From: Cyanobium sp. NS01
GTDB lineage: Bacteria; Cyanobacteriota; Cyanobacteriia; PCC-6307; Cyanobiaceae
Direction: 5' to 3'
Length of the DNA: 64,000 bases
NCBI RefSeq assembly: GCF_014280235.1
Contig: NZ_CP047940.1
Coordinates: 868,001-932,000 of the forward strand
The first letter of the stretch is position 1; every line of letters starts with the position of its first letter. The notes beneath the pieces were generated by a model. That model saw nothing but the letters and a program-made list of their open reading frames with translations. It was not told where the DNA came from and did no database searches. Positions 37,560 to 39,499 of this stretch are shown piece after piece. A program made the translations under genes and the position numbers.

Positions 37560-37899
37560 CCAGGCGCAGCATCCGCTGGCCCGGCGCCAGCTTGGCCTGC
37601 TCCTCGAAGATCGCGGCCAGTACCGCCTGGCTGGCGGCGGGGTGTGCCTTGATCCCGGCGACAATCCGCTGGACATCCTCAGGGGCCAGGCCTCCCTGCA
37701 GGGTCCTGGCATGGAGCTTCTGGCGGAACTGCTCCAGCAGCGCCTCCTCCTCGGCGTTGAGGGGGCGGGCCCCCGGGCAGTCGATCTCCACGGTGTGCCT
37801 CGGCCACGGACCTGATCGTTTCACGCTAGGTGCGGCAGGTCCTGAGGTCAGGGGCGCCTGCGTCAGCACCTCATGACGCTCGCCCCCTTTGACCCGCAC
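37552..37899 (-). CDS. hypothetical helical protein (up to 115 aa)
   Basis: The strong part is residues about 37-115: VEIDCPGARPLNAEEEALLE, then helical FRQKLHARTLQGGLAPEDVQ and VLAAIFEEQAKLAPG. The first 36 residues are irregular, so the true start may be GTG near 37791 and not GTG 37899. No family recognised. It is translationally linked (8-nt overlap) to the lipase-like gene. A start at 37791 would also leave room for promoters between it and hli. Confidence 0.55.
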   Translation of the reverse strand: MRVKGGERHEVLTQAPLTSGPAAPSVKRSGPWPRHTVEIDCPGARPLNAEEEALLEQFRQKLHARTLQGGLAPEDVQRIVAGIKAHPAASQAVLAAIFEEQAKLAPGQRMLRLDG

Positions 37900-37948
37900 C
37901 CCTTCATGTTCTGTTACACTCCACGCAACGTTTCGTCACCCGCCTCCC

Positions 37949-38095
37949 ATGGCCGACAACACCGCTTCCCGCTTCGGCTTCGTTGCTTTCGCTGAAACCT
38001 GGAATGGCCGTCTGGCCATGATGGGCTTCGTCATCGGCCTGGCCACCGAAATCCTCACCGGCCAAGGCATCCTGGCCCAGGTTGGTCTCGGCTGA
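37949..38095 (+). CDS. hli: High-light-inducible protein (Hli/Scp)
   Basis: 48 residues. The single chlorophyll-binding helix motif is AETWNGRLAMMGFVIGLATE, with the Glu/Asn/Arg ligands of the CAB/ELIP family kept. A short N-terminus (MADNTASRFGFVAF) and tail follow. Hli proteins dimerise in the thylakoid and dissipate light energy during stress or pigment turnover. A -10-like TACACT is at 37915-37920, and a strong hairpin terminator follows the gene. Confidence 0.95.
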   Translation: MADNTASRFGFVAFAETWNGRLAMMGFVIGLATEILTGQGILAQVGLG

Positions 38096-38262: not shown

Positions 38263-38376
38263 ATGCCTCCCTCCCAGACGCCCTCTCCAAGGGTCGTGAA
38301 GCTGCAGATCATGGCGGCGGTGTTTGTGCCCATGGCCCTGCTGGGGCTGTGGCTTCGCTCCCAGGGCTTCTGGTGA
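38263..38376 (+). CDS. possible 37-residue membrane peptide
   Basis: ATG start. A basic head (MPPSQTPSPRVVKLQ) is followed by a hydrophobic helix (IMAAVFVPMALLGLWL) and RSQGFW. The shape is that of a one-helix small membrane protein. It begins 10 bp after the hli hairpin and overlaps the 3' end of the convergent UmuD-like gene by 68 bp, in a part where that protein has a non-conserved tail. No family recognised. Confidence 0.4.
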   Translation: MPPSQTPSPRVVKLQIMAAVFVPMALLGLWLRSQGFW

Positions 38377-38854
38377 CCCGCTGACGCCGCGGCAGCAGGT
38401 GGTGCACGGCATGCATCACCACGCCCCAGATCAGCAGCTCTCCGCCGGGGTCGTCCACGCGGATGGCGGGGATGGCGGGATCGCTGGCCACCAGGTGCCA
38501 TGGCGGCCGCTCGCCGCGCAGCTGTCGCAGCACGAAGCGCCCCTCGTGAATGGCCACCACCGTGCAGCCCGGCCGCGCGGCCACGCTCCGGTCGATCACC
38601 AGCAGGTCGCCGTGCTGGATGCCGGCTGCCTGCATGGCGTCGCCCTCCACCCGCATCAGGAACGTGGAGGTGGGCCGCGGCACCAGGGCCGTGTTCAGGT
38701 CGATCGACGCCTCCACGTAGTCGTCAGCAGGACTGGGAAACCCCGCCGCCACGCTCTCCAGGGCGAGCGGCAGCGCCTCACCTGAGGCCTCGTCGCTGAG
38801 GGCGCCCAGCCAGCGCAGATCGGCTCGCTGGGCGGTGTTGTCAAGGCGGCCCAT
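38309..38854 (-). CDS. UmuD-like S24 protein with both catalytic residues replaced
   Basis: 181 residues that align without gaps to E. coli UmuD: the cleavage site region AAGFPSPADDYVEASIDLN, then FLMRVEGDAM and AGIQHGDLLVIDRSV. UmuD self-cleaves with Ser60 and Lys97. The matching residues here, 36 and 73 positions after the cleavage site, are Ala73 (GDAM for GDSM) and Arg110 (VLRQL for VKKL). So it should not cleave itself, though the Ala37-Gly38 site is kept. The tail of about 25 residues is extra. A LexA box lies upstream. No umuC is in the window. Confidence 0.9.
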   Translation of the reverse strand: MGRLDNTAQRADLRWLGALSDEASGEALPLALESVAAGFPSPADDYVEASIDLNTALVPRPTSTFLMRVEGDAMQAAGIQHGDLLVIDRSVAARPGCTVVAIHEGRFVLRQLRGERPPWHLVASDPAIPAIRVDDPGGELLIWGVVMHAVHHLLPRRQRVTRSPGSEATAPAGPWAQTPPP

Positions 38855-38876: not shown

Positions 38877-38890
38877 CGTACATTTGTACT
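38877..38890 (-). promoter_or_regulatory. LexA (SOS) box upstream of the UmuD-like gene
   Basis: Read on the minus strand: AGTACAAATGTACG, a full match to the cyanobacterial LexA consensus RGTACNNNDGTWCB and a palindrome of GTAC half-sites. It ends 22 bp before the UmuD-like start codon, where repressor binding would block transcription. Confidence 0.85.
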
Positions 38891-38911: not shown

Positions 38912-39499
38912 TCAGTCGCCGCAGCCGCGGCGGATCACCTCCTGCTGCAGGGCTCTGAGCTGGCCATCGTCGGGGATCTGGGGCGCGAACAGCAGCGCCC
39001 AGGCGAGGGGGACATCGCCCTCCCGCAGGGCGCTGTCAATGGCTCCCAGCCACCCGGCCGGCTGCCCCCCCGCGCTGAGCTGGTCGATCAGCCGCTGGCT
39101 CTGGGCCATGCGGCTGGCCGAGGCACCCACCAGGTGCACATGGGCAAAGGCCTCAGCGGACGCCTCCTCGGGGCGCAGCTGCAACAGCACCGGTTCGCCG
39201 GGCCCGATCGGCGTGGTGGGCCAGTCCAGGGGGGTGCGGATGGGTTGGTCGGGGCTGCTCACCAGGCGCCAGGTGTCGGCTCGGGGCCGTTCGATGCGCA
39301 GCTCCAGCAGGGGTTCCACCAGCACCAGCCGGGGGCGGGACACCGGCACAACGCCGAGGGCGTCGGCCATCTCGACCGGCTCCACGCGCGGCGCCACCAC
39401 ACACACGGCCACCGGCAGTTCCGGCTGCTGCAGGGCACGGCTCGAGGGTGTGGCGGCCAGCCCCACCAGCACCAGCCCGGTGATCAGCCGGGAGTGCAT
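38912..39499 (-). CDS. exported hypothetical protein (195 aa)
   Basis: A signal peptide covers about residues 1-22 (LITGLVLVGLAATPSSRA). The mature part is hydrophilic with three cysteines (AVCVVAP, and GCGD at the end) and alternating beta-like blocks (PRLVLVEPLLELRIERP, EPVLLQLRPEEA). A Gln/Leu-rich helix precedes the C-terminus (DDGQLRALQQEVIRRGCGD). No family recognised. It lies upstream of, and on the same strand as, the UmuD-like gene, but the SOS box sits between them. Confidence 0.65.
   Translation of the reverse strand: MHSRLITGLVLVGLAATPSSRALQQPELPVAVCVVAPRVEPVEMADALGVVPVSRPRLVLVEPLLELRIERPRADTWRLVSSPDQPIRTPLDWPTTPIGPGEPVLLQLRPEEASAEAFAHVHLVGASASRMAQSQRLIDQLSAGGQPAGWLGAIDSALREGDVPLAWALLFAPQIPDDGQLRALQQEVIRRGCGD

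Follow-up and report, generated by a model that had tools for sequence, protein, structure and literature searches.

The umuD-A locus of Cyanobium sp. NS01

The window analyzed here, a stretch of 64,000 nucleotides from Cyanobium sp. NS01, carries on its reverse strand an open reading frame with an ATG start (positions 38309..38854), which encodes a protein of 181 amino acids. We designate this protein UmuD-A and the second, partner UmuD of the same genome UmuD-B. The initial annotation had described the window gene as a umuD homologue with an intact AGFPSP cleavage site, and profile searches bear this out: UmuD-A scores 76.8 bits against the Pfam family Peptidase_S24 (cut-off 23.3) and 121.7 bits against the NCBIfam model PRK10276, "translesion error-prone DNA polymerase V autoproteolytic subunit" (cut-off 110). 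The NCBIfam HumD model also matched, at a score below its cut-off. UmuD is the top match among PDB sequences and UmuD' the top match in Foldseek, the best hits by sequence and fold being UmuD' and UmuD-RecA structures. AlphaFold models support the fold as well; the AF2 arm of UmuD-A is poor (mean pLDDT 65), and because of this low confidence no geometry was drawn from the models. In the alignment with E. coli UmuD (8gmt), the stretch that begins ahead of the cleavage site and extends beyond the catalytic residues is free of gaps, while two gaps of one residue each follow further on, so that the gapless alignment originally reported holds for this stretch only.

Sequence and family alignment place the AGFPSP site at codons 37–42 (38729..38746, reverse strand), with the scissile bond between A37 and G38. 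This pair matches what is expected of a UmuD cleavage site, i.e. A/C-G about 24 residues into the chain and 36 residues before the Ser. Both members of the Ser-Lys dyad are replaced, as had been proposed: codon 73 (38636..38638, reverse strand) specifies Ala where the catalytic Ser60 of E. coli UmuD sits, and codon 110 (38525..38527, reverse strand) specifies Arg in place of the catalytic Lys97. Ala73 and Arg110 lie 36 and 73 residues from A37-G38, the same spacing that separates S60 and K97 of the E. coli protein from C24. The first Lys in the ‘TVKKL’ motif of that protein is K97, with which Arg110 aligns. A third active-site position, which the initial annotation was not in a position to recognize, is lost too: codon 108 (38531..38533, reverse strand) encodes Val where E. 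coli has Thr95. UmuD-A consequently lacks the dyad required for self-cleavage. UmuD-A and its orthologues do not start at GFPSP; they retain a pre-arm of 35–45 residues, and this region ahead of the site shows partial conservation (LPLA-E). With this full arm, UmuD-A differs from HumD and from constitutive UmuD' forms, which have no cleavable arm, a description that would apply to UmuD-B.

The LexA box reported upstream of umuD-A could be located precisely. The sequence AGTACAAATGTACG occupies positions 38877..38890 of the reverse strand, ends 22 bp before the ATG and is the sole match to the pattern within the window, where 0.02 matches are expected by chance. Its presence predicts SOS regulation of umuD-A. 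Further upstream, on the same strand, lies a gene for a protein without Pfam match (38912–39499, reverse strand), relatives of which are found near umuD-A orthologues in genera g1, g45, g47 and g59; this gene and umuD-A may form one SOS unit. Just downstream, in opposite orientation, a small protein of the chlorophyll a/b-binding type, likely high-light inducible, is encoded (37889–38095, forward strand). A gene of this type is also found near umuD-A in four other genomes (G099, G072, G059, G081). umuC is not among the neighbors, and except in genus g47 umuD-A orthologues lie apart from umuC.

The second UmuD adjoins umuC and lacks the cleavage site

A search of the genome for other umuD, umuC and lexA genes, as suggested in the initial annotation, was informative. 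The complete genome of Cyanobium sp. NS01 (2.75 Mb) encodes three S24 proteins, namely LexA, UmuD-A and UmuD-B, and no further UmuD was found in it. LexA possesses its cleavage site as well as Ser and Lys. The umuD-B gene (L003; C1:1310013-1310411) is located directly upstream of umuC, ~0.40 Mb from umuD-A, and a perfect LexA box precedes it. UmuD-B contains the motifs GDSM and FTVKRL, i.e. both Ser and Lys are present. The cleavage site is absent, and a low-complexity stretch following the likely GTG start replaces the arm. In most genomes of genus g6, UmuD-B likely starts with MGVDLNEQ, and as a consequence most UmuD-B proteins of this genus would lack even the arm that E. coli UmuD' retains.

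Since UmuD-A carries only the site and UmuD-B only the dyad, the genome encodes one UmuD that could be cut but is predicted not to cut, and one that could cut but offers nothing to be cut. This arrangement bears on the three roles initially proposed for UmuD-A. That it keeps a second UmuD uncleaved is, in this form, untenable, as the second UmuD of this strain has no site to protect. Cleavage in trans by another protease fits best, and the second UmuD adjoining umuC is the candidate for this protease. Among the genes compared, 20/29 umuD-A and 18/20 umuD-B orthologues are preceded by a LexA box; judging by these boxes, both proteins are probably induced in the SOS response.

Reciprocal loss in two UmuD classes

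We used a sample of 151 genomes of the family to follow the distribution of both forms. In most of them, umuC adjoins one canonical umuD, the product of which has the site as well as Ser and Lys, and certain genera have the pair. Alignments comprised 23 A and 20 B proteins, and the classes were compared using 29 A, 20 B and 101 canonical UmuDs. In class A (E. coli numbering), residues 24–33 are kept in 27–29 of the 29 proteins, with Ala at P1 in 27 and G25-A30 nearly invariant, while S60 is replaced by Ala and K97 by Arg without exception (29/29), and T95 by Leu, Val or Ile. Class B displays the converse: S60, T95 and K97 are kept in 20/20 proteins and the site region is gone. This reciprocal loss and retention had escaped the initial annotation, which had however asked whether Ala and Arg are fixed among orthologues. 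They are, in every A-class orthologue read. A strain-specific lesion or a sequencing error is excluded by this fixation in dozens of genomes.

A pattern scan of 400 genomes of the family returned 67 matches, three of which were of another kind, leaving 64 genomes with class A. One additional genome (G509; GDAL) raised the total to 65 picocyanobacterial A genomes. In the scan they were confined to genera g1, g6, g23, g45, g47 and g59. Class B is co-inherited with class A in 56 of the 65 genomes, i.e. 54 by the phmmer-based count plus G673, in which B is cut by a contig end, and G509. Eight A genomes from four lineages have no B, and G022, which is 62% complete and in which no umuC was found, was counted in neither group. 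No genome with B but without A turned up in the family scans. A looser scan at class level gave many matches outside the family, which by inspection represented another gene (GFPVGFVGA...) or chance; no class A protein was seen there.

To avoid grouping by the diagnostic residues, columns 60, 95 and 97 were left out of the UmuD tree. Class A formed one clade with 99/99 support and class B one clade with moderate support (81/88), and each class is of single origin. In the UmuC tree most split genomes formed a group, within which three canonical genomes from the genus to which the window belongs were nested, so that one to three changes are needed. As the split is essentially one evolutionary event, the genome counts given above are not independent observations. 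umuC is intact in split genomes.

Canonical UmuD had a median dN/dS of 0.20, class A one of 0.34 and class B one of 0.41. Classes A and B are thus under purifying selection that is looser than in the parent. The higher rate of A relative to canonical UmuD (0.34 vs 0.20) is what one would see if A were a degenerating duplicate. However, the same Ala and Arg occur in six genera, the site is near invariant, selection is purifying and the LexA boxes are kept, which makes decay scarcely credible. The initial proposal that the altered active site is a selected state agrees with its fixation across six genera at a dN/dS of ~0.34.

The scans also revealed UmuD variants outside the two classes. In genus g45, a third class (L070, L071; genomes G106, G045) has no site, and GNGM and FLMRP stand where the dyad would be; it groups with class A, has a LexA-like box upstream and possibly has further members in G533, G541 and G555. 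Two single UmuDs of canonical type show isolated changes and are possibly decaying: L214 in G073 (Ser to Arg) and L211 in G016 (Lys to Arg, with FTLRK). In the Synechococcus lacustris group (g44; L082, L205, L206, L132), the sole UmuD starts with MVV(A/G)GFPSP and resembles a natural near-UmuD'; here Ser60 is replaced by Ala and T95 and K97 are kept, in one clade only. G677 has two umuD-B/umuC loci (L332, L339), but with 4% contamination this assembly is possibly mixed. Finally, in G026 (99% complete) umuC (L278) has no umuD upstream, and no UmuD match at all was found in that genome.

The P1 residue of UmuD-A where UmuD-B was lost

Conservation of GFPSP alone is no proof of cleavage, because this motif is also part of UmuD'. 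Only the P1 residue and the arm upstream of it bear on cutting. Cutting of A by B would predict that P1 of A is under constraint in the presence of B only. All 55 counted A genes from genomes with B specify Ala at P1, and so does that of G509. In the four lineages without B, P1 is Thr in one (G059/G111), Ser in two (G640/G645; G680) and Ala in the fourth (G629/G692/G695). No umuD was found upstream of umuC in the region read in G059, G111, G640, G680 and G629. At the level of genomes, which are related to each other, association of P1 with B gave p = 8e-6 in Fisher's test. The three P1 changes all map to branches without B, and these branches account for 23% of the tree length; placing the changes at random by branch length yields p ~0.012, or ~0.018 when the long G680 branch is omitted. 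A sign test on independent pairs did not reach significance, as there were too few pairs. The retained Ala of G629/G692/G695 counts against an enzyme-substrate relationship of B and A, and retention of A in four B-less lineages means that A has some use without B.

The pattern also speaks to the identity of the putative protease. LexA, or another RecA-dependent S24 protein, might cut A in trans, and LexA of Cyanobium sp. NS01 indeed has its cleavage site, Ser and Lys. However, genomes have LexA irrespective of B, and P1 nevertheless changes only where B is missing. Moreover, A and B are homologues and putative dimer partners, and LexA is more distant. Cleavage by LexA therefore appears very improbable to us. 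The P1 data are suggestive of B rather than LexA as the protease that would act on A.

A proposed split of UmuD into substrate and enzyme

Taken together, the sequences suggest that the UmuD autoprotease was split by duplication into a substrate half, A, and an enzyme half, B, with trans cleavage and an asymmetric Pol V as the likely outcome; we give this reading a probability of roughly 60%. Following gene duplication, A would have kept the A|GFPSP site together with the arm at its N-terminus while losing S60, T95 and K97, and B would have kept these three residues while losing site and arm. We infer that A and B form a heterodimer which, bound to RecA/ssDNA, would place the arm of A in the active site of B. 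B would then cut A in trans, generating A'/B. In the subsequent assembly with UmuC, A' would provide the freed GFPSP arm, which would enter UmuC, and the UmuC C-terminus would be taken by B, whose S60/T95/K97 pocket is intact. Pol V would accordingly be an obligately asymmetric A'.B.UmuC complex, for which neither paralogue alone would suffice.

Work on E. coli provides precedents for the individual steps. Trans cleavage is known for E. coli UmuD: an arm-truncated, uncleavable UmuD cleaves UmuD S60A in a RecA-dependent heterodimer assay (PMC5342242). In a model of Pol V, the two UmuD' subunits are non-equivalent: S36/T71/K73 of one subunit bind the UmuC C-terminus, and the second subunit has its arm inserted near the UmuC active site (PMC11791011). 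This asymmetry comes from modelling supported by older experiments (PMC11791011; also PMC12926913). S36/T71/K73 of UmuD' correspond to S60/T95/K97 of UmuD, and it is just these three residues that A has lost and B retains.

The same correspondence opens another explanation, in which the subunits specialized without proteolysis. S60, T95 and K97 of B could have been kept for binding of the UmuC tail instead of for cutting, with A supplying the arm and B the pocket, each fixed to one UmuD' position, and A remaining uncut or being trimmed by a general protease. Such a division is compatible with the Pol V model (PMC11791011), in which one subunit holds the UmuC C-terminus in its S60/T95/K97 pocket and its partner inserts the arm into UmuC. 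It is also compatible with the joint loss of all three pocket residues in A and with the persistence of A in four lineages without B. Against it, A keeps the 35–45 residue pre-arm and the P1 Ala, whereas the S. lacustris UmuD starts at MVVAGFPSP. In that UmuD, loss of Ser60 with T95 and K97 retained is what would be expected if Ser serves cutting and T95/K97 something else. This suggests that Ser is dispensable for tail binding, and yet B keeps it in 20/20 proteins. We therefore regard specialization without cleavage as unlikely.

Alternatively, uncut A might pair with B, a constitutive UmuD'-like protein, and hold Pol V inactive or hand B over to ClpXP. In E. coli, UmuD/UmuD' heterodimers are preferred and the UmuD arm delivers UmuD' to ClpXP (PMC5342242), and partial conservation of the arm upstream of the site in A (LPLA-E) would suit such a role. 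However, a brake or delivery factor gives no reason for retention of the site and of the P1 Ala, nor for the change of P1 after loss of B. Furthermore, armless UmuD' dimerizes but reportedly does not support mutagenesis (PMC11791011), and B, being armless, would not by itself form an active Pol V that had to be restrained. We consider this function of A quite improbable.

Discussion

The proposed enzyme-substrate pair shares with the E. coli UmuD/UmuD'/Pol V (UmuD'2C) system its fold, an AGFPSP-type site, the SOS box and partnership with UmuC. It differs in that the single UmuD of E. coli combines site and dyad in one chain and acts as a homodimer, whereas two genes share these parts in the cyanobacteria. 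The closest likeness is the engineered E. coli combination of arm-truncated UmuD and UmuD S60A, in which an uncleavable live chain meets a dead chain with a site and cuts it in trans. That pair was made in the laboratory, whereas A and B are natural and fixed, and the substrate half has lost T95 and K97 as well (PMC5342242).

Other departures from the canonical arrangement are known. Phage HumD proteins (P1 and relatives) are naturally short UmuD' forms without cleavage arm, a feature that they share with UmuD-B. HumD is, however, a stand-alone UmuD' substitute, whereas UmuD-B adjoins umuC, is even shorter and has a dead full-length partner. Acinetobacter species likewise have several UmuD paralogues per genome with divided roles (UmuDAb and multiple umuD alleles), but UmuDAb is a LexA-like repressor, and a reciprocal split of site and dyad was not found for them in the literature searched. 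Synechocystis LexA is another cyanobacterial S24 protein without catalytic Ser; in contrast to UmuD-A, it lacks the Ala-Gly site too and acts as a transcription factor without a partner (PMC3091678). A dead paralogue kept as obligate partner of an active one is exemplified by the trypanosome prozyme of AdoMetDC (PMC5201418), which acts as an allosteric activator, whereas UmuD-A would be a substrate. For Cyanobium gracile PCC6307, two umuD genes have been mentioned without further detail (PMC5101192). No earlier description of such a split was found in the open-licence literature searched, and within that literature the pair is an undescribed variant of UmuD.

A second occurrence of the substrate-only form was detected in phages. 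Two contigs emerged from a scan of viral contigs for the class A signature, and two relatives were obtained with a protein search (L309:1544-2047, L310:868-1371, L349:230-730, L350:123-560). The encoded UmuDs keep AGFPSPA, S60 is replaced by Ala, K97 by Arg, and T95 is replaced as well. A CTGT-N8-ACAG box is present ~17–18 bp before the ATG in three of the four, with a near match in the fourth. Neither umuC nor a second umuD was recognized in the stretches examined of these contigs. By their sequences, the phage proteins appear to have converged independently on the substrate-only state, and a UmuD of the host could act on them. A wider reading would join both cases: two obligate, mutually dependent genes, one substrate-only and one enzyme-only, would form an asymmetric Pol V (A'.B.UmuC), and the same substrate-only form would have arisen independently in SOS-boxed phage UmuDs that are cut by the host UmuD. 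We advance this extension tentatively, at somewhat short of even odds.

Cis versus trans cutting of UmuD, and the individual contributions of the two UmuD' chains to Pol V, have so far had to be studied in a homodimer, in which one chain cannot be distinguished from the other. If the split into substrate and enzyme is correct, neither half can cut itself, and the family name “autoproteolytic subunit” would mislead for both. Evolution would in this case have labelled the chains, one as the arm and the other as the active site and pocket for the UmuC tail, and trans cleavage as well as Pol V asymmetry could be tested directly with native proteins. The picocyanobacterial pair would then be a clear example of how reciprocal loss after duplication makes an enzyme and its substrate out of one protease.
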